Source: a virus. From it: a stretch of DNA of 21,229 bases. Below, one piece after another: positions 4,280 through 21,229 of the stretch. Both the position numbers and the translations under genes were made by a program. Within the stretch, counting starts at the first letter, position 1. Each line of letters begins with the position of its first letter. The DNA lies in IMG/VR virus record IMGVR_UViG_3300046714_000088, positions 1 through 21,229 of that record. One strand, written 5' to 3'. The notes beneath the pieces are model-generated. The model did no database searches and had not been told where the DNA came from. It worked only from the letters and a program-made list of their open reading frames with translations.

Positions 4280-5473
4280 TTATTCAGCCATCGAGAACTC
4301 TACGGCTCGACCCGCCAGGGTCGTCTTTACCAGGTCTGTGAATGACGCCCCGGCGGACTCCCACCGGAACCGATCTTCATGCACACGAAGAAGCCCTGAT
4401 GCGCTGAGCATTCTGCGGTGGCTGTGATCTCGATACAGTGCATCGAGCGCATCGACGGCTTGACGCTTGTCCATTACACCGCCGACTGTGTTGGTCTGAT
4501 CTGGATGCACCGCGATGGACGTGCAATCGACCAGGTATCCGGCGCCATGGAGGAGCTCCCCCAGAGCCGACCAGTTCGGGGCAATCACTGGCACACCGCA
4601 GGCCATTGCCTCGAACATCGGCAGACCAAACCCCTCGCCCAGGGTTGTCGTGAAGAGTGCATCGAAGCACGCGATGGTCCGCGCCATGATGGGTTCCGGC
4701 GTGCCTTCGACTGACAGCGGAATCTTCGGCACAGCCACACGCTCCGCAATGCGGAACAGTTTGGCCATATCGATCAGGTCCCACGCGTCGTTGCCGCTTG
4801 GTGCCGAGTGCACCCAGAGCAGCGCATCCGTGATACCCCTCGAGTGCACCCACTCAGCGAAATACTCCATCGTCAGGTCCAGTCGCTTGCGCCACTGGTT
4901 CCGGCACACGACACCGACGATGAAGGAATCGGCCGCTAAGCCGCGCCGCGAAATCGCTCGAGCCATTCCGGTCCGCTCTCGAGCCGCTAAGCGGTCGGCT
5001 GGTTGGTAGATTTCAAGGTCCACGCCAAGCGGAATCACGGACGCTTGACCGACGTAACCGCCCTTCCGCGCTTCATCCAGGGCGAACTGGGTCCAGAACG
5101 CCGCATGCGCGAGACCGTTCAGCTCAGTCCCCTTGGCATTCTTGCCATCAATGGCGATGTAGCCAATCACCGGGACGTTGCCGGCTCGTTCCAGGTAGGC
5201 CTGGATATGCCACGGATCGTTCTGCACCACGATGACCGACGGCCCGAGGTGCTCAACCAACTGCTTCACTCGGCCAACGCCCATGAAATCGCCGCCCGGC
5301 ATGCTCGGCCACACCTTGAACGGATAGCCGTGTGGATCGCCGTGGTAGTTGATCCCGAGGACATGCACTTCGTACGTCTTGTTCAGCTCGGCACAGATGT
5401 ACCGAGTTGCGCGCTCAAAGCCTGTTGAGGCCCCGGCGTCACCTATCCAGAGTAACCGCTGCCGTGTTTCCAT
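4280..5473 (-). CDS. GT4-type glycosyltransferase within the neck operon
   Basis: A 397-aa GT-B fold glycosyltransferase. The C-terminal domain has the hallmark E-x7-E element (E280-GFGLPMF-E288) followed by EAMACGVPVIAPNWSALGEL, and an R/K donor-phosphate segment near residues 191-197 (RNQWRKR). The N-terminal domain begins with LLWIGDAGASTGFERATRYI, a Gly-rich acceptor-side loop, and a switch segment VIPLGVDLEIY lies at 146-155. These enzymes transfer a sugar from a nucleotide-sugar donor; the sugar and acceptor cannot be deduced. It lies between the stopper gene and the gp10-like gene, and is coupled to the latter (TAA|ATG), so it is co-expressed with virion genes. A GAGG precedes the ATG. 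Virion-protein glycosylation is the best inference. Confidence 0.9.
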   Translation of the reverse strand: METRQRLLWIGDAGASTGFERATRYICAELNKTYEVHVLGINYHGDPHGYPFKVWPSMPGGDFMGVGRVKQLVEHLGPSVIVVQNDPWHIQAYLERAGNVPVIGYIAIDGKNAKGTELNGLAHAAFWTQFALDEARKGGYVGQASVIPLGVDLEIYQPADRLAARERTGMARAISRRGLAADSFIVGVVCRNQWRKRLDLTMEYFAEWVHSRGITDALLWVHSAPSGNDAWDLIDMAKLFRIAERVAVPKIPLSVEGTPEPIMARTIACFDALFTTTLGEGFGLPMFEAMACGVPVIAPNWSALGELLHGAGYLVDCTSIAVHPDQTNTVGGVMDKRQAVDALDALYRDHSHRRMLSASGLLRVHEDRFRWESAGASFTDLVKTTLAGRAVEFSMAE

Positions 5474-5494: not shown

Positions 5495-5836
5495 CTATAG
5501 ATAAACTTCGGCGATGAGATGACCTGTCGCGTCAACTGGAGTGCCTACGCCCATGACCTTGCCGCCGGTCCCATCTGCGAGGTAGATCTCATCGAACTCC
5601 GTGATCGGAATCGGCGTTGTGAACGTCAGAACGGCTTTGCTCACGCCAAGCTCACCGCTGAACGTCCGAAACTGCCGTTGCTTCATCTCGATGGCCGCTT
5701 GGCGGTTGACTATCTTGAATCCCGCATCACCGACACCACCGTCACCGGTGAACATCTTGTGCTTCACGTCACCCTGCATGCCAAGCGACTTGGTCACGCT
5801 GTCGATGATGGAGACGCCTTGGCTGAGAATCGTCAT
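5495..5836 (-). CDS. Head-tail stopper (connector) protein
   Basis: A 113-aa protein directly after the adaptor gene, overlapping it by ATGA, with GAGG about 8 bases upstream of the start. The content looks beta-rich (KAVLTFTTPIPITEFDEIYL, GKVMGVGTPVDATGHLIAEV), which fits the small beta-barrel stopper or head-closure proteins found between the adaptor and the gp10-like genes in siphoviruses. No diagnostic motif is recognised, so the call depends on position and size. Confidence 0.65.
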   Translation of the reverse strand: MTILSQGVSIIDSVTKSLGMQGDVKHKMFTGDGGVGDAGFKIVNRQAAIEMKQRQFRTFSGELGVSKAVLTFTTPIPITEFDEIYLADGTGGKVMGVGTPVDATGHLIAEVYL

Positions 5837-6420
5837 TCAATCACCTCGAACTCGAAGGACAGTGAGCCCTCGATCGTCTCCTGGGTATACCAGGACGGAA
5901 CCAGGAGGAACGAGACCACATCGGGGATAACCTTCGTGACCATGACCCCATCGATGCCGGCGAACGAGACTGAGACCGAACCAGCCTTGACGTTCGTGAT
6001 GCCCTGGACAGCCGCCGTGTTATCCAGACTCCGGTCAGCAACGGCCAGTTGACCCGCGAACTCCGCAACCGCTTCCTTGAGCGACGGCGGAATCACGTCA
6101 TTCGGGATGGGTGCACCGTTGCGGTTCATCATCCCTTCGCGCGGCCAGCACAGGGCCTGTGTCTCAGGCGACGTAGCCCGGCCTGTCCACATCGGCGCAA
6201 CCACGTAGGTTGCAGGTTGGCCGCTCCCGCCACTCACCTTCATCCGGACGCCAGAATACATTGCGTCGATGAGCCTTGTAGCGTGCATCAACAACGCTTC
6301 CTGACTGGGCGCTGATTCCCAGGCCGGCAGTGGAGCCCGAGACTGGTAGTACAGCTGCGCTTCCTCGAGAGTGAGGTAACTGTTTGCAGTCGGCGCACCG
6401 GGTGTCGGATCGAGTGGCAT
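5833..6420 (-). CDS. Head-tail adaptor protein (connector, DnaT-like family)
   Basis: A 195-aa protein. Its N-terminus (ANSYLTLEEAQLYYQSR), the helix carrying SAPSQEALLMHATRLIDAM, the segment ALCWPREG and the helix PPSLKEAVAEFAGQLAV follow the pattern of phage adaptor proteins that databases often label 'DnaT-like ssDNA-binding protein'. These form the ring under the portal that joins it to the stopper. A beta-rich C-terminus follows. The start at 6420 lies 2 bases after the upstream stop with a GAGG at the junction. The position after the capsid genes and before the stopper agrees. Confidence 0.84.
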   Translation of the reverse strand: MPLDPTPGAPTANSYLTLEEAQLYYQSRAPLPAWESAPSQEALLMHATRLIDAMYSGVRMKVSGGSGQPATYVVAPMWTGRATSPETQALCWPREGMMNRNGAPIPNDVIPPSLKEAVAEFAGQLAVADRSLDNTAAVQGITNVKAGSVSVSFAGIDGVMVTKVIPDVVSFLLVPSWYTQETIEGSLSFEFEVIE

Positions 6421-6919: not shown

Positions 6920-7966
6920 CTAGGCGAGCGTGCCGATGCAGACGCCGGAGTTGCCGTCGTAGTCGGAACGAACGCGCGGGATCATGATCCCCATGACCAG
7001 GTTGTTGACCTTGAAGCCGTCGAGCGACGTCCACGGGATCACCGTGGGACGCTGGCCGTCGACGATCTCGATCACGTCCGAGGTCATCTGCACGAGTGCC
7101 ACCTTGTTGGCTGGCATCATGTCAGCAGTGCGGATGCGCAGGTTGCGGCCGCCGACGTTGATCTCCTGGAGACGCTGGAGGATCGAGTCGTTGCCGTTCG
7201 CCTTGAAGTCCATGTTGAGGGAGATGCCAACCGCGGTCGGCACGTACAGGTTGTACGGACCGTACTTCTTGTCCGCCTGCTCCTTCGTGATCATGGACAG
7301 CACTTCCGACTGGACGGTCGTGCCGTTCGGTGCCGCACCGCCCCACGCAGCCGCTGTGAGCTGCTGGGTGTTGGCGTTCGGTGCGTTCAGCAGACCGGGC
7401 GCGTTGTAGCCGGCCACCACGAGGTCCTGACCATCGAGAGTCGTCGCGCCGTTGATGGCCGCGTCCTCGATGGCTTCGTTGACCGCGCGAGTGCAGGCTT
7501 CGATGTTCGAGGTGTCCAGCGGCGTGCCGACCCGCTGAGAGACCTTGAGCGTGCGGATGTCCAGCTCGAAGCCGTCCATCGTGAGGTAGATCGGGAGGCG
7601 CTGGGGCAGAACAATCGGGAGCTTGTTCTCGTAGCGCGACGAGGGCGTCATGCTGCGGTACGCGGCTCCGACCTTGTTCTGCTTGTTCCACTCGAGTTGA
7701 GTGACAGACAGCGGATCGTTGAGGTTGTACGTCAGGCCTTCCGCGAGGATGTCGGCCACGAACGTCAGGCGCTGAAGCCCGACCTTGATGACCGCTTTGT
7801 CCAGGAGGACCTGCGCCTTGTCAACGAGCGGCGCCAGGGCACGGAAGCCCGGGGCGCGGAACGACGGGATGTCGAGGTTTCCGCCCTGCTCCAGGGCCCG
7901 GAGAACCGTGTCCGCGAGGGGACTGTTGTCCGCCGCCGCGGTGTACCGCATGGTGTTGAAGCGCAT
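6920..7966 (-). CDS. Major capsid protein, encapsulin-like HK97 fold
   Basis: A 348-aa protein forming the icosahedral shell. The segment LPIYLTMDGFELDIRTLKVS, then RVGTPLDTSNIEACTRAVNE and AIEDAAINGATTLDG, follows the pattern of encapsulin-like capsid proteins (E-loop and P-domain helix), and the C-terminus IMIPRVRSDYDGNSGVCIGT ends in the same style. It lacks the ~100-residue N-terminal delta domain of HK97 gp5, consistent with a separate scaffold encoded upstream. A GGAGG lies about 10 bases before the ATG, inside the end of the preceding gene. The order decoration protein then capsid matches lambda D-E. A later ATG at residue 6 is possible. Confidence 0.92.
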   Translation of the reverse strand: MRFNTMRYTAAADNSPLADTVLRALEQGGNLDIPSFRAPGFRALAPLVDKAQVLLDKAVIKVGLQRLTFVADILAEGLTYNLNDPLSVTQLEWNKQNKVGAAYRSMTPSSRYENKLPIVLPQRLPIYLTMDGFELDIRTLKVSQRVGTPLDTSNIEACTRAVNEAIEDAAINGATTLDGQDLVVAGYNAPGLLNAPNANTQQLTAAAWGGAAPNGTTVQSEVLSMITKEQADKKYGPYNLYVPTAVGISLNMDFKANGNDSILQRLQEINVGGRNLRIRTADMMPANKVALVQMTSDVIEIVDGQRPTVIPWTSLDGFKVNNLVMGIMIPRVRSDYDGNSGVCIGTLA

Positions 7967-7968
7967 GG

Positions 7969-8412
7969 CTACAGCACCTCCACTCGGATGCGCGCGTCAC
8001 CAGGACCCGCAGTGTTGTTGATTGCCTCGAGCGCGCGGAAGGCCTGCGATGCACCAGCACCGGCCACGAGCTTGCCGTTGCCGGCGTTCTGGAGGGTGGC
8101 GCCGAATGCAACGTTCGCGCCGGATGCGATGAGCGCCCACACGGTGGCGCCCTGGCCCATCGTGCTGGTCTCGACCAGATCGTTGATGTTGTAGACGTCA
8201 TCGACGCCTTTGTTGAGCATCGCCTGGTCGGTGGCGAAGGTCGTGCCGGGGCCACCAGCGGTTGCGGCCTTCTTCCAGCGGTTGACACCGCCGGTCGAAT
8301 CCGGGTCGACGAGCATGCCGGGGGTGATGACTTCCTTCGCCGCCAGCGTGTTGTTTTCGACCCTTGGCCCGCCCAGGTACACCACGTTCGGTGCGTTTCG
8401 GGTGATTGCCAT
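7969..8412 (-). CDS. Head decoration (capsid cement) protein
   Basis: A 147-aa Ala/Gly/Val-rich protein immediately upstream of the major capsid gene, 2 bases apart. It begins MAITRNAPNVVYLGGPRVEN and has the segment KEVITPGMLVDPDSTGGVNR. The 'x-I-T-P-G-M-L-V' element resembles DUF2190-type decoration proteins that sit on the outer capsid surface. The C-terminal half is a run of beta-like segments with Ala/Gly turns. An AGGAG lies about 9 bases before the ATG. The call rests on position and composition. Confidence 0.75.
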   Translation of the reverse strand: MAITRNAPNVVYLGGPRVENNTLAAKEVITPGMLVDPDSTGGVNRWKKAATAGGPGTTFATDQAMLNKGVDDVYNINDLVETSTMGQGATVWALIASGANVAFGATLQNAGNGKLVAGAGASQAFRALEAINNTAGPGDARIRVEVL

Positions 8413-8468: not shown

Positions 8469-9002
8469 TTACTTCGCGGCCTGGAGCGCCTTCAGGTCTT
8501 CGGCGTACGGGTCGGGCGGGGCGAACGATGCCGGCGACTCCTGAGCGTAGCGTGGGATGCCACGACCGGAGTAATCGGCGGGGGCTTCGACCTTCGCCAG
8601 GGCAGCGAGCTTCTCGAGCTCACCGATCGGCTTGGCCTTCAGCTCTTCTTCCGTGAACGCGGACTGTGCGGTCTTGAGCTGGCCGATGAGCGCATCGGTC
8701 TTGGCCGCGAGAGTTGCCTTGTTGCCGGCAACGATGTCGCGGATCGACTGGGGTGCCGCCGCGAGGAAACCATCCTCGGTCTTCAGGGTCTCGGCCGCCG
8801 TCTCGAGAGCCTTGATGCTGGCCTGCGCGGTCTTCAGCGCGTCGCCGTCTTCCGTGGCCTTGTCAGCCGAGGCCTTGGCTGCAGCTGCGGCCTTCTCGGC
8901 CTGCTCGAGTTCCTCGTCGGTCAGCACTTCGAGAGCCTTCAGACTCTTGACAGTGCTGTGTGGGTTCGCGGCCAGCGCCGCGATACGCTGCTTCCTTTCC
9001 AT
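8469..9002 (-). CDS. Internal scaffolding protein (nested, in-frame)
   Basis: A predicted 177-aa product starting at the ATG at 9002 inside the protease-scaffold gene, same frame and same stop. AAGGAG lies 8 bases upstream, a better ribosome binding site than most in the window. The sequence is a charged Ala-rich coiled coil (DEELEQAEKAAAAAKASADK and similar), typical of capsid scaffolds. In lambda, Nu3 is made the same way from inside gene C. Whether it is really expressed is an inference from the signal. Confidence 0.62.
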   Translation of the reverse strand: MERKQRIAALAANPHSTVKSLKALEVLTDEELEQAEKAAAAAKASADKATEDGDALKTAQASIKALETAAETLKTEDGFLAAAPQSIRDIVAGNKATLAAKTDALIGQLKTAQSAFTEEELKAKPIGELEKLAALAKVEAPADYSGRGIPRYAQESPASFAPPDPYAEDLKALQAAK

Positions 9003-11681
9003 GTCTTTTTCTCCTTCAGCCGCGATCGCGGCATGGTCATGGGTGCATTCGTCGCACGTACCTCCGCACCCGCAGGCGGCACGCAATTCCAACTCTTCTG
9101 ACTTTACCAGCGTCTTGAGCTTGCGGTCAGTTCGATCGTCCTTGACCACCATCTCAGATGCCCGATTCAGCATCCACTTGAGATTCTTGTCCTTCACTGG
9201 GCCAAGCTTCTCGTGCTCCCAGTCGTTCCCGGCCCGGCGATAGCTGTGGACCGTGGTGTGACCAGGAACCCGGATGCCGAGCACGTGCGCCGCAGCTCCG
9301 GCATGGTACTGTTCCGAGGTTTCTACGTGCCCTTCGCCGATGTGCGCTGAATCCAGCCCGCGGCCATGGTCATCCTTGCCACTCTTATCTGGCCACGCCG
9401 CGCGGAATTCTTCCTCTTCCTCGGAGGCAGATGCCACCTTGAGCTTGAATCTCTTCAGCCAGTGCGCCGAAACCCGTTCATCGTCAGGCGCCATTCCATG
9501 CCCTGGATGATCCGGCCTCACTACGATGATGTGATGACCGATCGTGTTCTTGTTGGTTGACACGCGTTTCACGACGCCGTGCGTATCTCTTTTGGGATGG
9601 AAAAGACCGCCAGCACTTTTTGTGAATGTTACACGATCACCAACGTTCGGCTTCTCACCTGGTTTGAACGCCTCCGGATCAACATCATCATTTCCGCCGC
9701 TTCCGTCTCGCCCATGGTCGTCCTGCCCGGATTTATCCGGCCACGCTGCACGGAACTCCTCGAAGTCATCGTTGTCGACGTCCTCGTCACTTTCGGCGAT
9801 GGATCCGAACAGTGCCGAGAGAATCCTAGACATCAGACCAGGGTTTTCTTCGGTCACTTCCTCGGCTGCACGCATCTCTTCGGTCCACTCCTCGGCCGCT
9901 GCCAGGTAACGGCCGCCACGAATCTTGACCTCGTGGAAACCGCGGTGCCCCTTGGCGTAGTCGCCGGGAATCACGCCTATAAATGCCTTCTCGACCGACA
10001 CGTGGCCTTTGGTCGGGTGATGCCAATGCTCACCCTCCCAGCCGCTACCTTTGTCAGCGCTCTGCTTTGCGAAACCCTGGCTTTTCAGCTCGATCTTGAG
10101 GCTCTCGTAGTGATTCCTGGCGGCCTCGCGATCATCCTGCTTGAACTTGCGCGTGATTTTGCCGCCTTCTGGGTGGGCTGATGCTTTGCCGACGTCATTC
10201 ACCGCCTTTTTAGAGAAGCCGGGGAATTTCTTCATCATGTCGTTGATGGTGGTCTTCGCGCTCAGCTCGGGGGCCTTGTCAAGTGTATAGCCCTGCTTCT
10301 TCAGGCTGAGATGCGTCTCAAGCACGTCGTGCGCACTCATTTCACCGGGCTTGCCGTAGTCCACTTCGGTCTTGCCGTGGACCGGATGCGTGTAGCTGTG
10401 GACGCCGCCGCCTTCAGGTCGGCCGTGATCGTCTTTCCCGCTCTTGTCCGGCCATGCCGCACGGAAATCCTCGTCTGCGGCCTGAAGGAGTTTGTGACTG
10501 GCACCCTTCCAGCTTGGATGGCCGACGAACTTACCAACCTCGGTATGCGACTCAGACATCCGGTTCAGGTGATCTTTGGCCTTCAAGTGATCCGCATACT
10601 TACGGCCACCTATGTGTGCACCTTTGGGATTGTGCACTTCCATGTAGACCTTGCCGCCGGAGTTCGGGATGCGCGTGATCTTGGCTTTCCATCCACCAGG
10701 CGCTTCATGGTGCATCTCCGCAAACCCTGCATGTTCGCCGCGCTGGACCTTGACATGATGCTCATCCGCATCGCGGCCGGCATCTTTATCAGCACCAAGC
10801 ATCGACTTGGTGATGTGCACATGCCCTTCAGTCGGATGCACATGATGCTCGGTCTCCCACCGTGGCCCCTTGTCCTTGGACATTTCCTTGTAGCCGCGGC
10901 TCTTGAGTTCACCACGGACTGCATCGAAGTGTTCTTGAGCCTTGCTAGAATCCGAGAACTTTCGGACATGCTCCCCGGCGGATTTCGACTCGTTGAGTGC
11001 GTCACCCGCATGGCTGTGACCCTCGGATCCGTCGCGCCCATGCGAGTCCTTGCCGGTCTTGTCCGGCCATGCGATACGGAAGTCATCGTCGAAGTCTTCC
11101 GCACCCTGGGCAGCACGAATGCCGCACCCCATGGCCGCACTGCACGCGCCGACCTGTCCTTCGGCCAGGAGGGCCAGGTGGTCAGGTGTCATCGAGGCCC
11201 ATTCAGCGCTGTAGCCGCGGCCGTTCCACTCACCCATCGTGGGCACTGCATCGACGAACACGCCGACACTCACCTCGATCAGATCATTGGCCTTTGCGCG
11301 CTCGAGCAAGCGCCGACCTTCCGGGTTGGCTGCGCACCGGTCCGGGTCCAGCCACGCTTCCATGAGGAGCCGCTTACCGTCAACCCTGGGATTGAACACC
11401 CGGCCGAGGCATGTCTCGAGGACATCCGGGGTGTTCCCGGAGACTGGCGAACCGTTTTTCAGCGGGTGGCCAGCGAACAGTGGTCGGCCGTTCCAGGAGG
11501 ACAACGTCCTCGAGAACAGGTCAGCCTTGACCAGTTCGCGCGTCGGCGCATTGACTGGATGGATAACGCCCTCGACCAGGGCGACGACAGGCACGACCAG
11601 GTGCTCACGGCCGTCATGCTTCATCAGGCGTGATTTGCCGGTGGCACCAGCCAAGGCGACGATGCGAACGTCAGTGTTCAT
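8469..11681 (-). CDS. Capsid maturation protease-scaffold polyprotein with inserted cassettes
   Basis: A 1070-aa protein. Residues about 20-180 match the DUF2213-type phage protease/head-maturation domain: HLVVPVVALVEGVIHP, FAGHPLKNG with H72, and LIEVSVGVF with S138; H72 and S138 are candidate catalytic residues. Residues 894-1070 are an Ala/Glu/Lys-rich helical scaffold. Between them lie four linkers (FRAAWPDKSGKDDHGR-type at 201-216, 406-421, 643-658, 759-774) separating cassettes. Cassettes 1 and 2 contain a duplicated His-rich unit (246-296 and 517-569), cassette 3 has an SH3-like barrel look (VGDRVTF...GVVKRV), and a Cys cluster CGCGGTCDEC lies at 870-879. The start is ATG 11681 with GAGGA just upstream, 7 bases after the previous stop; an in-frame ATG 15 codons earlier overlaps that gene. 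The usual family length is a few hundred residues, so this is much expanded. Confidence 0.85.
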   Translation of the reverse strand: MNTDVRIVALAGATGKSRLMKHDGREHLVVPVVALVEGVIHPVNAPTRELVKADLFSRTLSSWNGRPLFAGHPLKNGSPVSGNTPDVLETCLGRVFNPRVDGKRLLMEAWLDPDRCAANPEGRRLLERAKANDLIEVSVGVFVDAVPTMGEWNGRGYSAEWASMTPDHLALLAEGQVGACSAAMGCGIRAAQGAEDFDDDFRIAWPDKTGKDSHGRDGSEGHSHAGDALNESKSAGEHVRKFSDSSKAQEHFDAVRGELKSRGYKEMSKDKGPRWETEHHVHPTEGHVHITKSMLGADKDAGRDADEHHVKVQRGEHAGFAEMHHEAPGGWKAKITRIPNSGGKVYMEVHNPKGAHIGGRKYADHLKAKDHLNRMSESHTEVGKFVGHPSWKGASHKLLQAADEDFRAAWPDKSGKDDHGRPEGGGVHSYTHPVHGKTEVDYGKPGEMSAHDVLETHLSLKKQGYTLDKAPELSAKTTINDMMKKFPGFSKKAVNDVGKASAHPEGGKITRKFKQDDREAARNHYESLKIELKSQGFAKQSADKGSGWEGEHWHHPTKGHVSVEKAFIGVIPGDYAKGHRGFHEVKIRGGRYLAAAEEWTEEMRAAEEVTEENPGLMSRILSALFGSIAESDEDVDNDDFEEFRAAWPDKSGQDDHGRDGSGGNDDVDPEAFKPGEKPNVGDRVTFTKSAGGLFHPKRDTHGVVKRVSTNKNTIGHHIIVVRPDHPGHGMAPDDERVSAHWLKRFKLKVASASEEEEEFRAAWPDKSGKDDHGRGLDSAHIGEGHVETSEQYHAGAAAHVLGIRVPGHTTVHSYRRAGNDWEHEKLGPVKDKNLKWMLNRASEMVVKDDRTDRKLKTLVKSEELELRAACGCGGTCDECTHDHAAIAAEGEKDMERKQRIAALAANPHSTVKSLKALEVLTDEELEQAEKAAAAAKASADKATEDGDALKTAQASIKALETAAETLKTEDGFLAAAPQSIRDIVAGNKATLAAKTDALIGQLKTAQSAFTEEELKAKPIGELEKLAALAKVEAPADYSGRGIPRYAQESPASFAPPDPYAEDLKALQAAK
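9011..9016 (-). promoter_or_regulatory. Internal Shine-Dalgarno for nested scaffold
   Basis: On the minus strand AAGGAG is followed by an 8-base A-rich spacer and ATG at 9002. It sits exactly at the border between the Cys-rich cassette and the scaffold domain. Confidence 0.62.
9360..11081 (-). repeat. Four-copy 16-residue linker repeat (FRAAWPDKSGKDDHGR type)
   Basis: Copies lie at 11034-11081 (FRIAWPDKTGKDSHGR), 10419-10466 (FRAAWPDKSGKDDHGR), 9708-9755 (FRAAWPDKSGQDDHGR) and 9360-9407 (FRAAWPDKSGKDDHGR). Each follows a stretch of acidic residues. The DNA copies differ at synonymous positions, so the amino-acid sequence is what is conserved. The cassettes between copies are not copies of each other except for the duplicated His-rich unit. 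Confidence 0.95.
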
Positions 11682-12334: not shown

Positions 12335-12587
12335 ACAGTGAATCCCCAGTCATCTCAATCTCAGGCAGATACGATCCAACCAGTGACAGCGCCGGGATTG
12401 CCGCTCCAATCGATCCCGCCGGGCCTAAGCGCACAAACGTCATCAACGGCAGTTCAACGATGTACGATCCGACCATCGCGAGGACCATCACACTTCGGCC
12501 AACCAGGTCAATACCTGGATGGCAAAAATCCACTCCACGTGGCGAGGCAAATACTCCCTCGGCGAACTGATCCTCGGCGAAGATCAT
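12318..12587 (-). CDS. Small decapeptide-repeat protein A
   Basis: An 89-aa paralogue of the downstream protein. The first 27 residues are unique (MIFAEDQFAEGVFASPRGVD onward). Residues 28-88 form six ten-residue units with one extra Gly: LVGRSVMVLA, MVGSYIVELP, LMTFVRLGPA, G, SIGAAIPALS, LVGSYLPEIE, MTGDSLYVDE. The G at position 3 and aliphatic residues at 1, 6 and 9 match the other protein. The gene overlaps the glycosyltransferase stop by ATGA and has no clear Shine-Dalgarno sequence, so translation is probably coupled. Function unknown. Confidence 0.72.
   Translation of the reverse strand: MIFAEDQFAEGVFASPRGVDFCHPGIDLVGRSVMVLAMVGSYIVELPLMTFVRLGPAGSIGAAIPALSLVGSYLPEIEMTGDSLYVDEN
12324..12506 (-). 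repeat. Decapeptide repeats (protein A)
   Basis: Six units with a single one-residue insertion after the third. The same consensus as in the adjacent gene indicates duplication of a repeat gene or a shared ancestor. Confidence 0.72.
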
Positions 12588-13594
12588 GCGGTAACCAACG
12601 CTTCAGTATACCAGCCCTGTTCCTGGAGCGTCGTGAGCCGCGAGAAGTACGCTTCATACTGATGGGCCACTACGCCCATGCTGAAGCGGTCCACGGCCCG
12701 GCGATTGATCAGCACCGGATCCAGGCCTCTGCACTGTTCGACGGCATCCAGGAACTCGCCCAGGTAGCGGCATCGAAAGCCCGTGATGCCGTGTGCCACG
12801 GTCTCAGGATACGCGCCCCAGTCTGTGGTGATGACTGGTGTACCGCAGAACTGGGCCTCAACCGCGACGCCGCCGAATGGTTCGAGATACAACGTCGGAC
12901 TCAGCAAAGCCTGCGCTCTCGAGAGCAGGATGCCGCGCTGTTCCGCATCGACGACGCCCAAGTACTCGACACACGGGTCAGTCGGTGGAACGCCCTGGCC
13001 GCAGACCACGAGCCGCTTGCCCAGACGCTTAGCGATATCGACCGCAACGTGCAGGCCCTTGTCTTCGTTCAGCCGCGCCATGAACAGGAGATAGTCATCC
13101 TTCTCAGCACTGAAGGGGAAGTCACGTGGGTCGTAGTAATTCGGAATCACCGCGTCGTAGAACCGACCAGTCATCTGCCCCATGCGGCCATAGACGTGGG
13201 CCTGGTGGGCATACGACTCGAAGACCAGGAACGGAGCGAAGACGCCGTAGTAGCCGATTCCAAACTCCACGGCTGGCAGCATGCCAGTGAACGCGTCAGC
13301 GATCTGCTTCTGGCAACGGCCGGCGATGAGGCACAAGAAATCCCCAGGCGCCGCGTTGATGTTGATCGCGTTGATCATGCGTTCGTTCTGCCGCTGCCAC
13401 ACCGGATTCTCCGGGTCGAACGGAAACTCAAGATACTTCTCCGGCGGAAGCGGTTCGTCGCTTACGTAGGTGAAGACTTCATGACCCAGGCCAGGCATCA
13501 TGATGCCGAACTTCCGCACCTTCTCGGTGTAGGCGCAGCGCACGTATTCCTTCGTCGGCAGCGTGTGCGGCAGTGCCGGGACGTGGAATCTCAT
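12584..13594 (-). CDS. GT4-type glycosyltransferase, fibre-proximal
   Basis: A 336-aa GT-B fold enzyme. The C-terminal donor domain has the E-x7-E motif (E238-PFGGVAV-E246) followed by AQFCGTPVITTDWGAYPE, and MARLNEDKGLHVAVDIAKRL at 172-191 carries the usual R...K donor-phosphate pattern. The acceptor-side domain includes MPGLGHEV. The start chosen is ATG 13594, which overlaps the upstream stop by ATGA; the frame extends to an earlier ATG at 13627 but that would overlap the upstream gene further. The stop overlaps the next start by ATGA as well. It is only distantly similar to the other glycosyltransferase in the window. Donor and acceptor are unknown; modification of fibre or capsid proteins is inferred from the operon. 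Confidence 0.9.
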   Translation of the reverse strand: MRFHVPALPHTLPTKEYVRCAYTEKVRKFGIMMPGLGHEVFTYVSDEPLPPEKYLEFPFDPENPVWQRQNERMINAININAAPGDFLCLIAGRCQKQIADAFTGMLPAVEFGIGYYGVFAPFLVFESYAHQAHVYGRMGQMTGRFYDAVIPNYYDPRDFPFSAEKDDYLLFMARLNEDKGLHVAVDIAKRLGKRLVVCGQGVPPTDPCVEYLGVVDAEQRGILLSRAQALLSPTLYLEPFGGVAVEAQFCGTPVITTDWGAYPETVAHGITGFRCRYLGEFLDAVEQCRGLDPVLINRRAVDRFSMGVVAHQYEAYFSRLTTLQEQGWYTEALVTA

Positions 13595-13956
13595 GACGGT
13601 GTATCGATGCCTCCGAGGGCATTCCACAGGGTCGTGATCTGGGACTCGAGGTCAATGTCCGCCGCGTGACACGTCGAAGTCTGCGTCTCCGGATCCCAGA
13701 CCGTCGCGGCGATGATGTTCACGCCCATGACGACCTGCGGCCCGGCCTGGGTCGCCGCTTGCTGCGGGCTTTGAATGACCAGCTTCGCGTAGAACGCGCG
13801 GGACGGGTGATACGCCGTCGTGCCCGGCTCGGCGAGGACGACACCGGCCACGCGGGCCAGCATGGCCTGCACGCGCTCCATGAAGCCACCCGGGCCAATG
13901 TCGCGCGTCAGCGCCATCTGAATCGTCGAGGTCTCTGGCGGTGCGATATCAGGCAT
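13591..13956 (-). CDS. Conserved-looking phage protein of unknown function
   Basis: A 121-aa protein not recognised. It has an amphipathic helix (GGFMERVQAMLARVAGVVLA), a beta-like segment (SRAFYAKLVIQSPQQAAT), then GPQVVMGVNIIAATVWDPET and a C-terminal helix (IDLESQITTLWNALGGID). Its start overlaps the end of the upstream coiled-coil gene by 8 bases and its stop overlaps the glycosyltransferase start by ATGA, so the three are probably one translational unit. AAGGGA lies about 9 bases before the ATG. A virion-assembly role is possible, by context only. Confidence 0.62.
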   Translation of the reverse strand: MPDIAPPETSTIQMALTRDIGPGGFMERVQAMLARVAGVVLAEPGTTAYHPSRAFYAKLVIQSPQQAATQAGPQVVMGVNIIAATVWDPETQTSTCHAADIDLESQITTLWNALGGIDTPS

Positions 13957-14931: not shown

Positions 14932-16869
14932 TTATTGACTCGCTACGCCGACCAGATACCAATAACCAGTGTAAGAGGCATAGCGGAAGCCAATCCACAT
15001 CATGCGTCCACCACCGGGTGACGCTGCCGGAAGTCCCTGCGTTGACATGCCTGCCCAATTACCAGACCAATACAGCGGCCTCGCCGTGCCATCATCACGA
15101 ATTGCGATAACCAAGGATTGACCGTCACGCCCATTCACCGGCGAGCTAAACGTGCAGCCGTAGTTGATGGCGTAATGCGTCACCATTTCCGTGGTGTTCA
15201 TATCAGGTTGGAAACCTTGCGCTCCTGCGGCTAACCCAGCGACACGCGGTGCCTGAATCCCTTGAATCAAACTTGCTGAGTAGATCGGTCCCGCGCAGTA
15301 CAACCCAGTGTTCGAGTACAGACCATACGCGCCGTGACTGCCGATATACCAGCTCGCTTGGATGCTGCCCGTGCCAATCGCAACGTCCACACGACCGGGA
15401 TAGATGACCCCGCGCGGCTGGAACGAGTTGCCGCCCGTGATCGCGCAGGCGTTCAGCTCTAGCCCACCGCCTGCGCTGCCGACGTTCATGGAGGCGCGAC
15501 ACGTCAGGTCACCGAGATTATTGCCCGTCGCCTGCGAGTAGTAACTCGCAGCGGACATGATCGCCCACCGCGAGTTGTCGCCAGACACGAGCGCCAACGT
15601 GTCCGCTGCCGGATCAGGACGCAACGCGGGCTGATTGTTCGCGCCACCAATCTTGAGGCCGATGACATTCGCGGCTACATTCACCACGACGGCCGCCGAA
15701 AACGCCCCACCCGCCGCAAACGTCCCATTGCCCCCCGTGTCCACGCGGAACAGCATCGCGGCCGTGCGGGGATTCGCACCGGGCGAGAGCCAGTCGAGTT
15801 CAAGAGCGAAGTTGCCAAACGACGCTAACTGAACACCATTCGTCGCCGTGTCATCGAGGTAGCACGCACCCCCGGCGAAGCGGAAGTTTCGCGTCAGCCG
15901 GAAGTCATTCGCGCTCCACGATGTGAGGCGCGTGAGCGCCGTGTTCGCGGGCGCCTGCAAAACATACGTCGGGTAGTCAGGATCGGCCCCGCCAATCAGG
16001 GTCATCGTGCCCCGGTCCGACAAGCGCAACATCGTCCAGTTGACCGCCGTCTCCGCATCGTTCAGCACGTCGAACGTCAGGAGTTGAGCGGACAACCAGA
16101 TGCGCCACTTCTGACGATCCACCGGTTGCCCAGTCGCCTGTAATTGAATCAACGGCAACGGCGCGACGATCTGCAACTGCGGATAGGCGCCCGTCAGTTT
16201 CAGTTGAACCATGTCGGCCTTACCACTGCGATAGAGCGTCAGCGGCGTCGCAAGGCCCGTCGTCCCAGCATCGTTTAGTGCGTTGAATGTCAGCGGACTC
16301 CCTGCCGACAGCGCGCTGTTGACGATGCTCCACAGCTTCAGATCGGTGCCACCACCCGTATCGTTTAGTCGAAGGCGAGGAATCGCCTTGCTGATGGTCT
16401 GGTCCTGCGTGAACACGTTGGCGACGTTCAGCCACGCTGCCCCCACGAGCGCGTCAGCACCGCCCGGTTCGTGCGTCACGTGATGCGCGGCCGTCGATCC
16501 CGCTGGCCCAGTCGCGCCCGTGGCTCCACTCGGGCCCGTCGCGCCGATGCCCGTGGGCCCCGTTGGCCCGGCCGGTCCCACGATGCCCTGAATCCCTGTC
16601 GGGCCTGTTGCGCCAGTCAACCCGATGACGCCGGTCGGACCTGTTGGCCCCGTCGCACCAGTGAGGCCGATGACGCCGGTCGGACCCGTTGGCCCCGTGA
16701 GGCCAATGATGCCCTGTGGCCCCGTCGCACCGATTGGACCGGCCACACCAGTAGGACCGGTCGGACCCGTCACGCCAGTCGGCCCTGTCGGTCCCGTAGG
16801 ACCGCTCAGCGTAGGATTCCAGACTGGAACCCACTCAACTGTCGCCGGATCAGGAAAAGGAAAAGACAT
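14932..16869 (-). CDS. Collagen-like tail fibre protein 3
   Basis: A 645-aa protein. The N-terminus ([11 protein letters not shown], residues 11-21) matches that of the upstream fibre and may be its attachment peptide. Residues 23-124 are Gly-X-Y repeats. [16 protein letters not shown] at 128-143 is shared with the other two fibres, and [13 protein letters not shown] follows. The rest is a beta-rich shaft with repeated segments of the type [10 protein letters not shown] and [10 protein letters not shown], and the C-terminus ends [11 protein letters not shown], a plausible receptor-binding tip. No tail-fibre chaperone or autocleavage domain is visible. GAAGG overlaps the upstream stop just before the ATG at 16869. 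Confidence 0.85.
16498..16803 (-). repeat. Collagen-like Gly-X-Y region, fibre 3
   Basis: About 34 triplets rich in GPT and GAT, with one one-residue interruption (GPTGIGATG). This should form a trimeric triple helix. Confidence 0.9.
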
Positions 16870-16871
16870 CG

Positions 16872-18554
16872 TTACCTTCGGAAATACACCAGGGTGTCAA
16901 GATGCACTTGTTCACCGCTACCACTCACCGCGAGAGTACCGTTCCCATGTGTATGATCCCCAACTGCCGTCGCCGTGATGTTATGCGCGTGCGCGGCCAC
17001 TGCTGCGACCGTGATCGTATGTGCATGGTTGCCGTCGGATACGATAACCGCATTGTGCGCGTGCGCTGCAACAACGTCTGTGCCTGCCGTGTGGCTATGT
17101 GCGCCACCTGCCGTTACTGTCAGTCGGTGACTATGGAATCCTGCGTCACCGGTGTTCCCATCGAAGTCAACACCGTGTACGTGCGTGCTGCGCGACATCG
17201 CACCGCTCTGGCCCGCGTCGACGTTCATTGACCCTGCTGAGTCCGTACCCGACAGCACGTGGATGCCATAGTAGTGGTTGTGCGTGCCATCGGCTGTCGT
17301 TTCACCGCCGTGTGTGTGGTCGCCGACGCCGTTAACCGTGACACCATGACCGTGCGAGCCTTGCGCGTCCGTATAGCTGCCCGTATGGACGTGAGCCCCT
17401 GCTGCTGTCGCTGTCGCCGTCGGAGTATGTGCACCGGCCGCATCCGTTGCACCAGTATGGCCATGCGCTCCAGCCGCTGCGATCGCACCAACCAGGGTCG
17501 GTGTTGAAGCCCCACCCAGAATCCCGCTGTATGCCGATCCAGCCTTGAGATACGCCCCAGCCAAACTCGGAGGCGTGAACGCTGTCGCCGTGATCGTGGC
17601 ACCACCGACCGTAAGGTAATCAGTCGCAACGCCGTTGCAGAGCGCCCACCCAGGTTCTTGCGGGGCAAACACGCGATGCGTGAAATAGCCGTTGCCGCAA
17701 TCACCGGGAGCAAACTGCCAAGCCGCTCCATCCCACCGACACACATGGTTGTATGGAGCCGTCACCATGTAGAGCAAACCAGCGTGCGCCGCGGTCAAGC
17801 CAGTCGGTTGCTGCGCAAGCGTTCCCGCTGCGATCGAGCCGTACAACGTAGTTCCAACCATCTTCAGGCCCGCGAGGTCGATCTCTTGCATCGGGCCCGC
17901 TGCCACACTTCCTCGACCGAATAGTCTCGAGGGTGCCGACAGTTGTAAGACGTCTGAGCCGCCTGGTTCGTGCGTCACGTGATGCGGCGGCATTCCCGCA
18001 CCTGGCATCGTGGGCCAGGGCTCGGGAGGCGTTGTGACGTTGCTCTTTACGCACAGGTACGTGATGCCATCGGCCGCAACAACGAGATCACCATTCTGAT
18101 AGGTGACTGGTGCTGGCAGGTTGTAGCCGCCGAGATAATCAAGAACCTCCCCATCGAGACCAGGTAATCCTGTCGGACCTGTTGGTCCCGTTGCGCCTAC
18201 GCCCGAGGGACCGGTTGCGCCTGTTGGTCCTATTGCACCTGTCAGACCGGTCGGACCTGTTGCGCCGGTCAAGCCGATCACACCAGTCGGACCTGTTGGC
18301 CCAACCACGCCCGTCAAACCTGTTGGGCCTGTAGCACCTGTCAGGCCGATCACACCCTGGGGACCAGTTGGTCCTATCGGACCCGTTGGTCCTGCAACGC
18401 CTATTGGACCCGTGACACCCGTCGGACCTGTGGCACCTGCTGGGCCCGTGACACCAGTCGGTCCACCCGCCGGACCTGTCGGTCCTTGCGGGCCGACGAC
18501 TTGTGGGTTCCAGACTGGGACCCATTCAGTTGTAACCGGATTCGGGCCGCTCAT
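16872..18554 (-). CDS. Collagen-like tail fibre 2 with collar domain and HxH needle
   Basis: A 560-aa protein. N-terminus [10 protein letters not shown] (9-18); collagen-like Gly-X-Y at 21-135; then a short module [20 protein letters not shown] with DGITYLC that looks like a carbohydrate-binding fold; [13 protein letters not shown] at 191-203; a phage tail collar-type segment at about 299-340 ([10 protein letters not shown]...[14 protein letters not shown]); and a C-terminal region 363-536 holding twelve H-x-H motifs. H-x-H repeats in phage fibres, such as T4 gp37, bind metal ions along a trimeric needle. The protein ends [10 protein letters not shown]. It starts 6 bases after the upstream stop with a weak Shine-Dalgarno sequence. 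Confidence 0.87.
16947..17468 (-). repeat. Twelve H-x-H motifs, putative metal-binding needle
   Basis: Motifs include [77 protein letters not shown] and GDHTHGN. A thirteenth site reads GAHTPTA and has lost the second His. Spacing is mostly 10-20 residues. Confidence 0.85.
18150..18494 (-). repeat. Collagen-like Gly-X-Y region, fibre 2
   Basis: About 38 triplets, GPT-rich, with one one-residue break near PSGVGATG. Confidence 0.9.
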
Positions 18555-18560
18555 AACTCT

Positions 18561-21229
18561 CTAGTTAATCGCAACGGTCAACTGGAAAGCGAGGCGCACC
18601 GTCCCACTCGGCAGAAACCCGCCGCCGCCCATGACGTCGCGATAGAGGCGAACGATGTCGTTCGGAGCCGTGTTGACCGAACAGACGATAGGTGGTGAGG
18701 CATTCACAAAGACCGGCGTCGCGCTGTACCCTGCCGTGGTATAACCACCCGGCAAATAGAAGAACCACGAACTGTTGTTCGCTGGCCCCACCACATCGGA
18801 CAACAGCGACAGGAACAGCGTTTTCCCCATCACCATGTACCTAGCCCCGTAGACTGTCCCATTGGGTATCACCGAACTGCCTTGGTCATACATCTGGGGC
18901 GTGAAATTAATCCAGTGCCCGATTGGCGTTGTGCGGCCCTTCTCGTAATGGTCGCGCGTCGCGATGATGTCCCGCGCCGCCGTGAAGTCGCCTGTGCGCG
19001 TGAACAGCGCGGCATTCGACTGATACCCGCCAAGATCGTTGTTCGTCTGCACATAGAGGGTCTGGCCTGTATTCACCAGACTGAAGCGTCTGGCGTCCGC
19101 TACCGCTGCGTCATCACTCAACGTCAACCGAGCTGCCCCGAATTTAATCGTCTGTTCAGCGGTGAACACGTTAGCGAGGTTCAAACGTGGCACGTTAGTC
19201 GCGATACGTGCATCAGGTACCAGACCACTGGTCAGCACCGAGGCATTTAGCGACGTTAACGCATCAGCCCCACCCGGTTCATGCGAAGCACGATGTGGTG
19301 GAAACGCACCACCTACTGTCGGCCACGGCTCGGGCGGCGTGTTCGTCCCGTCAACCACACAGACGTAGGTGATACCGTCTGGTGCGACAACGAAATCGCC
19401 ATCCTTGTAAACCGTCGGCGGCGTGTAATCACCCAGGTACGCAAGACCGCCGCCGCCCGTTCCTGCACCGCTTGGGCCTGTTGGCCCTTGTGGACCCGTA
19501 ACTCCTATCGGTCCTTGCGGACCAGTAACGCCTGTTGCACCTACCCCTGTTGGGCCTGTTGCTCCTGGTACGCCGTCAATACCTGCAACGCCACTCGGAC
19601 CTGTTGGCCCTGTCGCACCTGGAGGACCTGTTGGGCCGACGTCACCAACTCCTGGCCCCGTAGCGCCGATGGGTCCTGTCGGTCCGGTTGGTCCGGTAGC
19701 ACCAACGCCTGCGGGACCAGACGCACCCGTTGGACCCGTTGGACCTGCTGGACCCAGTAACCCATCGGCGCCTGTTGGACCAGTCGGACCGACTGCTCCC
19801 TCGGGACCTGCCACACCGCTTGGACCGATAGGCCCGACTGGACCGGTCGCACCATCAGGACCAACAGGGCCAATACCACCGGCCACACCGCTGGGTCCTG
19901 TCGCTCCGATTGGACCTGTGGCACCAGCATCGCCTGTAAGACCGATTGGACCTTGATCACCAGTTGCACCTATCGGGCCTGTTGCGCCTGTGACTCCTGC
20001 ACCTGTCGGACCAGTCGCTCCAGGAGGACCAGCCACGCCGCTCGGTCCTGTTGCGCCTGTTGCTCCAAGCCCAGTCGGACCGGTTGCACCAGGAGGACCG
20101 ACTGTTCCTGCACCGCCGCTAACTCCCGAGGGTCCTGTTGCGCCGGTCGGACCGAAGCCACCTGTGAGGCCCATCGGGCCAGTCGGCCCAGTCGCTCCAG
20201 TCGGGCCAACCAAACCCTGCGGTCCAAGCGGACCGGTCGGACCTGACGGACCAGGTATTCCCTGTGGCCCTGTTGCGCCGGTTGCTCCAGCTCCAGTCGG
20301 CCCAGTCGCACCGGCCGGACCGGCCACACCCTGGGGACCGGCCGCACCGCTTGGGCCGATCGCGCCGATTCCAGTCGGGCCTGTTGCACCTGCTGGACCA
20401 GCCGGGCCAGTCACTCCGACCCCAGTTGGGCCAATCGGACCGGCCACACCCTGAGGACCGCTTGCCCCGATGCCTCCTGGAGGTCCCTGGGGGCCCGTTA
20501 CGCCGATTCCAGTCGGTCCGGTAGGGCCTACAGCACCAGGCACACCCTGAACGCCCTGGAGGCCACCAGGACCTGTCGCACCAACTGGCCCAGTTGAGCC
20601 TGCCGAGCCTGTCGGACCAGCTGGACCCTGGATGCCCGAGGCGCCAGGTCCTCCAGTCAGCCCAGTCGGGCCTGTCGCACCAGCCGGACCAGGACCACCG
20701 ATCGGGCCTTGCGCGCCTGTCGGACCGGTCGGTCCTGAAGGCCCAGAGGGTCCTACCAAACCTTGGGGGCCGACGGGACCAGTGGCTCCAGTTACGCCAG
20801 CGCCTGTCGATCCGGTAGGACCTTCTGGACCTTGCGGACCTGATGGACCGCTCGGGCCGCTTGCTCCAATTCCCGTGGCGCCTGTTGGACCCTCGATGCC
20901 TTGCGGCCCAGTCTCACCTACGCCAGTCGGGCCGATCTCACCTTGTGGACCACTCGGACCAATCGGTCCCTCGAATCCTTGCGGACCTCGCGGTCCTTCC
21001 GGCCCCTCAGGGCCTGTGGCACCGGTTGCTCCGGCTCCCGTTGGGCCCACCGGACCAGTTGGTCCCTCAGGTCCGGTCGGTCCTTCCGGTCCAGTGGCTC
21101 CAGGTGGCCCAATCGGACCGCTTGGACCCATCGTGCCTTCGAACAGTTTCTCGAGATCCTCGATCGTCTTCCGCGTAATCGTGACAGCGACTTGGTGTCC
21201 CTGTAGGATCGCGATGGTTTTGAACGGCT
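18561..21229 (-). CDS. Collagen-like tail fibre protein 1 (5' end outside window)
   Basis: The frame is open to the right edge, with 32 residues before the first in-window ATG ([20 protein letters not shown] and [12 protein letters not shown]), so the true start is outside. Of 888 visible residues, about 558 are Gly-X-Y triplets with about a dozen one-residue breaks. The C-terminal 298 residues hold [20 protein letters not shown] with DGITYVC (carbohydrate-binding look), [26 protein letters not shown], and a beta-rich tip ending [10 protein letters not shown]. The two following fibres share parts of this. The helical N-terminal segment may join it to another virion part. The role is as a trimeric fibre; the receptor is unknown. 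Confidence 0.86.
19458..21131 (-). repeat. Long collagen-like Gly-X-Y region, fibre 1
   Basis: About 558 residues, rich in GPT, GAT, GPS and GPQ triplets, without the charged GEK/GKD-type triplets of many collagens. Regular one-residue breaks (GPTGAGATG-type) recur along it. Confidence 0.92.

Follow-up and report, generated by a model that had tools for sequence, protein, structure and literature searches.

One gene in the window, a 21,229-base virus fragment from IMG/VR, probably gives rise to several distinct proteins within the virus head, because a peptide repeated along its product looks like the cutting site of the product's own enzyme. The gene is a single minus-strand ORF (window 11681-8469; ATG at 11681, stop at 8469; 1070 aa) that encodes, in order, a DUF2213 head-maturation protease, four cassettes and a scaffold. 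Genes for a head decoration protein and then the major capsid protein (MCP) come after it. A linker of 16 residues stands ahead of each cassette, and these linkers are likely prohead-protease cleavage sites that would divide a head polyprotein probably able to cut itself. The initial annotation had described four linkers and their cassettes between a protease-type head and a scaffold tail in one frame, and the ORF, the profile matches and the linker positions confirm this anatomy. It had placed the feature at 9360-11081; the linkers do lie there, but the feature is wider, spanning 8469-11681 and extending to the MCP. The features are as follows (a slash marks a predicted cut):

11109-11681, minus strand: DUF2213 head-maturation protease domain (aa 1-191), ending in the predicted site GIRAA/Q
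11034-11081, minus strand: linker 1 (aa 201-216), FRIA/WPDKTGKDSHGR
10455-11069, minus strand: predicted released cassette 1, His-rich (aa 205-409); its N-terminal unit recurs in cassette 2
10791-10976, minus strand: duplicated His-rich unit, copy 1 (aa 236-297), found by blastp
10419-10466, minus strand: linker 2 (aa 406-421), FRAA/WPDKSGKDDHGR
9744-10454, minus strand: predicted released cassette 2 (aa 410-646)
9972-10163, minus strand: duplicated His-rich unit, copy 2 (aa 507-570)
9708-9755, minus strand: linker 3 (aa 643-658), FRAA/WPDKSGQDDHGR
9396-9743, minus strand: predicted released cassette 3 (aa 647-762); dN/dS 0.03 in the part aligned to relative L010
9360-9407, minus strand: linker 4 (aa 759-774), FRAA/WPDKSGKDDHGR
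9075-9395, minus strand: predicted released cassette 4 (aa 763-869), replaced in relative L014
9075-9086, minus strand: sixth predicted cleavage site, LRAA/C, at the scaffold start (aa 866-869)
8469-9074, minus strand: Cys motif, scaffold and stop codon (aa 870-1070), by homology to relatives
7969-8412, minus strand: head decoration protein (phrog_766, 1e-10)
6920-7966, minus strand: MCP, with the N-arm site GFRAL/APLVDK at aa 41-44 (Pfam accessions PF19774, 2e-13, and PF09950, 1e-7)

The head domain matches DUF2213 (Pfam accession PF09979, E 1.4e-5; 25.6 bits, which passes the curated cut-off of 22) as well as phrog_530 (head maturation protease, 1.4e-9) and phrog_760 (1e-19). Residues H72, S138 and H168 are conserved in aligned full-length DUF2213 heads and may form an assemblin-like His-Ser-His catalytic site. 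Homologues of the scaffold tail form the C-termini of protease-scaffold proteins in relatives and, in genomes G006-G008, a separate downstream ORF.

Each linker is preceded by an acidic run and follows the consensus FR[AI]AWPDK[ST]G[KQ]D[DS]HGR. Linkers consist of two parts, a phage-variable P4-P1 stretch and then a constant segment, which reads WPDKSGKDDHGR in the window and GGPGSG..GHxGRPG..GGS or GDxxGHxFxGNQ elsewhere. The constant segment is common to phages with different P1 residues and is thus unlikely to determine protease specificity. The ORF contains six copies of the motif [FLI]R[AIT][AL], compared with 0.23 expected, and none of 500 shuffles gave more than two. All six positions (aa 188, 201, 406, 643, 759 and 866) are domain boundaries: the end of the protease, the four linkers and the start of the scaffold. 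Further matches in the window (one in the decoration protein, one in a glycosyltransferase and three more in the MCP) indicate that the motif alone is insufficient to call a site.

We propose that the DUF2213 serine protease would cut after [FLI]R[AIT][AL] inside the procapsid, with P4-P1 of each linker serving as the phage-specific cleavage site. Cuts are predicted at the end of the protease domain, at the four linkers, before the scaffold and in the MCP N-arm. The predicted products are the protease (1-191), four cassettes (205-409, 410-646, 647-762 and 763-869) and the scaffold (870-1070). The freed cassettes (about 107-237 aa) would stay in the head, each retaining the constant segment as an N-terminal tag, and by analogy with relatives might enter the host together with the DNA.

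A scan of IMG/VR for linkers of the GGPGSG type yielded a non-random sample of at least 271 linker copies on at least 95 contigs. Among the matches listed, removal of related contigs left 32 independent genomes with linkers in two or more ORFs, and removal of paralogous pairs left 29 genomes with usable pairs. Among the matches listed, 84% of pairs drawn from different ORFs of the same genome agreed in the residue before GG (P1), compared with 19% after permutation. In these same listed matches, within-genome agreement also exceeded permuted values at P3 (40 vs 13%), P2 (23 vs 9%) and P4 (24 vs 13%), and was at background in the flanks beyond P5. P1 differs between the listed genomes, some of which are all-R, all-K, all-D, all-E or L/A. 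Being uniform within genomes and variable between them, P1 follows the pattern expected of a site read by each phage's own protease. The GHxFxGNQ type repeats this result more weakly, with agreement peaking at the residue before GDxxGH (0.67 vs 0.42 among the matches listed).

The same kind of site appears in capsid proteins. The MCPs of the window and of eight relatives carry [FL]R[AST][LA] at one alignment place, the junction between the variable N-arm and the conserved body. Four R-genomes have FV[SAG]R at the MCP N-arm junction, two D-genomes have RFD in the MCP, and the MCP site of K-genomes is ambiguous. These sites were initially chosen by eye. A blind leave-one-out matrix over seven groups recovered the match in two of them, ranking the right group first for six of seven L/A MCPs and three of four R MCPs, which are homologous within a group and thus not independent; it did not resolve the D- and E-genome MCPs. 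As in a polyprotein processed by a prohead protease, the motif was found at each boundary of the window ORF and in MCP N-arms.

DUF2213 proteases accompany L/A sites as well as D sites. The Peptidase_S77 protease (1e-13; PDB 5jbl) of the all-E genome is related to T4 gp21 and occurs together with a Gp23-family MCP, and T4 gp21-type proteases cut after Glu (PMC5694885; PMC9026906). A search of the R-genomes identified no protease. The genome-specific P4-P1, the MCP N-arm match and this one protease of known specificity strongly support the earlier proposal that the linker is a processing signal that releases cassettes in the procapsid.

A linker that serves mainly as a capsid-targeting (packaging) signal, with cleavage incidental, would resemble the T4 CTS peptides, which direct internal proteins to the capsid and are afterwards cut off by gp21 (PMC9958956). 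Among the matches listed, 45-49% of ORFs have their first linker no more than 60 residues from the in-frame stop upstream, compared with 17-21% at random. This placement near the N-terminus in about half of the listed ORFs is a signal position, not a spacer position, and short N-terminal presequences that end at the predicted protease site are common in relatives. The linkers of the window ORF are internal, however, and a copy that lies between two domains would add nothing to targeting. Genome specificity is moreover highest at the single position beside the constant part, as expected of P1, and we regard targeting as the main role as unlikely.

We give still less weight to the idea that each linker acts as a flexible spacer, or as a small folded scaffold- or capsid-binding motif, by which the cassettes stay joined, uncut, to the protease-scaffold. 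The constant segment would suit such a role, being rich in Gly, charge and His and kept across phages that differ at P1. But a spacer has no use for a single position whose residue is specific to the genome, would not be expected near N-termini, and leaves the same motif in the MCP N-arm unexplained.

Comparison of cassettes among relatives, a check that the initial annotation had named, revealed that the content of the slot varies. Relative L010 retains cassette 3 (in the part present), linker 4 and cassette 4. Relative L014 has an MCP 81% identical to that of the window and a conserved scaffold, and its slot holds FRAA, then GDKPGHDFHGNQ and a different last cassette. In more distant DUF2213 proteins, the slot is empty (L025) or contains a cassette with a GGPGSG-type (L022-L024) or GHxFxGNQ-type (L026) linker.

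The linkers are conserved as peptides. At the DNA level, they form a four-copy family with 75-77% identity to the reference copy; linkers 2 and 4 encode the same protein with 11 of 16 codons silently different, indicating that the peptide and not the DNA is conserved. These silent changes, together with a dN/dS of 0.03 between linker 4 and its L010 counterpart (20 codons), indicate that the linker is kept as a peptide. In the same comparison, the portion of cassette 3 present in both gave a dN/dS of 0.03, which points to strong purifying selection on it; cassette 4 gave 0.15 and the scaffold 0.21. Silent sites of linker copies across genomes differ at a proportion of 0.64 among the matches listed, where 0.71 would be random, and fourfold sites of the copies in G007/G008 and G009 are 66% different, compared with about 70-73% for random sites.

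It is therefore highly improbable that the linkers are recombination joints, short homologies for cassette swaps kept alike by gene conversion: cassettes and linker types do vary among close relatives (L014) and unrelated ORFs carry the same linkers, but conversion or recent exchange would prevent the near-random silent sites, found even within single genomes, and purifying selection acts on the linker peptide. Cassette swapping, which had been raised earlier as the other possible role of the linker, does occur, but is not supported as the cause of the copies' likeness; the linker may now and then be used as an exchange point.

Cassettes 1 and 2 share a 64-residue His-rich unit (44% identity, blastp 9e-14), which bears out the duplication noted previously. 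None of the four cassettes has a Pfam or PHROG match. The AF2 model of cassette 1 (pLDDT 71) has no significant fold match, and the structure model of cassettes 3-4, which bears on the SH3-like barrel suggested earlier, has a pLDDT of 34. Recognised effector domains of polyvalent proteins were likewise absent from cassettes 1-4 in the Pfam and PHROG searches and in the fold search with cassette 1. The GTDB genomes searched with the cassettes contained no relative, plasmids gave no match, and among the IMG/VR matches listed the His-rich unit occurs, besides the window, only in a near-identical contig. The cassette 1 unit resembles the L024 cassette too weakly (21% identity) for a relationship to be claimed. 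Searches of phages with the whole protein and the middle region (tblastn) matched only the protease domain, plus a Gordonia protein at E 7 that was judged spurious after reading the protein. Linker peptides gave no usable tblastn match, probably owing to their short length, and a limited search of the PMC literature for exact strings of the other linker types returned no match.

Linkers extend well beyond protease proteins. The window linker type occurs twice in the unrelated phage G001, as FRTLWPDTQGHDDHGR and LRALWPDKTGKDDHGR, in a 1656-aa protein that adjoins the portal and has an ART domain at its C-terminal end. One linker type has nine copies in G007/G008, spread over five ORFs that encode portal, ART, MuF and protease proteins, and G009 has eight copies over three ORFs. 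Effector-type domains were recognised in G001, G007 and G009, and relatives' linkers border ART, zeta-toxin, 2H-phosphoesterase and kinase domains. From these domains, it is plausible that the cassettes are injected with the DNA.

Three further cases were recorded. A G009 ORF (L039, 528-4340) joins a portal, a 2H phosphoesterase (Acb1-like, 3.6e-4) and a zeta toxin; its linkers lie at aa 695 and 922. A phage with a gp21-type protease (L188, G031) has linkers in six ORFs, one of which has a PI3/PI4-kinase-like domain. Some linkers of contig 3300025785_000013 (L263, L267) are chimeric (KGGPGSGAQAGHPFEGNQ) in a genome that otherwise uses K and then GDxxGHxFxGNQ; in these, the tag changes and the K is kept.

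It is already known that a prohead protease can cut several head proteins at a single motif, and polyvalent proteins with proposed peptidase release are known as well. In T4 (gp21), phiKZ (gp175) and SPN3US (gp245), one protease cuts itself, the MCP and many head proteins at a short motif; propeptides are lost and the mature proteins remain in the head (PMC10052503; PMC9958956). The predicted cuts of the window would likewise pair one phage protease and one short motif with several head proteins. The substrates in those phages are mostly separate genes that lose N-terminal propeptides, whereas the window joins protease, several cassettes and scaffold in a single polyprotein, predicted to be cut at every boundary and to leave each product with a constant tag. 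By comparison with T4, SPN3US and the relatives, the cassettes may be retained in the head and injected.

Polyvalent proteins are multidomain, lie near late genes, and include portal and MuF fusions with ART, 2H and toxin domains (Iyer, Burroughs and Aravind 2017; PMC5512222). Their release by peptidases, mainly embedded metallopeptidases, has been proposed, and the parts of that account consulted describe no shared linker or genome-specific cleavage code (PMC5512222). The cassettes of the window differ in matching none of the known domains. DUF2213 fusions in Hafnia phage Pocitis76 and Brevundimonas phage vB_BpoS-StAshley have, as in the window, a protease head and a scaffold-like tail followed by a decoration protein and MCP. 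Each has one short insert domain and L025 has no cassette, whereas the window has four cassettes with repeated linkers. A non-exhaustive literature search found no description of a protease-cassette-scaffold polyprotein with its own repeated sites, or of many phages coupling a genome-specific site to a constant tag.

We lean slightly towards a broader reading, in which diverse tailed phages mark head-packaged cassettes with a common two-part signal, a phage-specific protease site plus one of a few constant tags, so that the raw sequence of a phage would reveal its prohead protease specificity and likely cargo. The tag may have its function once the cut has been made, for instance during ejection. 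If this is true, the specificity of uncharacterised prohead proteases could be predicted from linkers in the same genome, and capsid maturation sites could be placed without proteomics. Head-borne and probably injected proteins, including these four family-less cassettes, could also be listed across viromes, making testable the long-standing question of which proteins phages inject.

The window contains several other features. Upstream of the head genes, three successive minus-strand ORFs (14932-21131) encode collagen-like Gly-X-Y repeats (GPTGPTG). Two group-1 glycosyltransferase genes (4280-5473 and 12584-13627) lie within the structural cluster, and the former is also present in L010 (850-2043). 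An ORF in the head-tail region (5833-6420) matches Pfam DnaT_2 (5.6e-23), probably a misnamed structural family. Antisense to the protease, a 440-aa plus-strand open frame (10311-11633) is most likely a by-product of high GC content.
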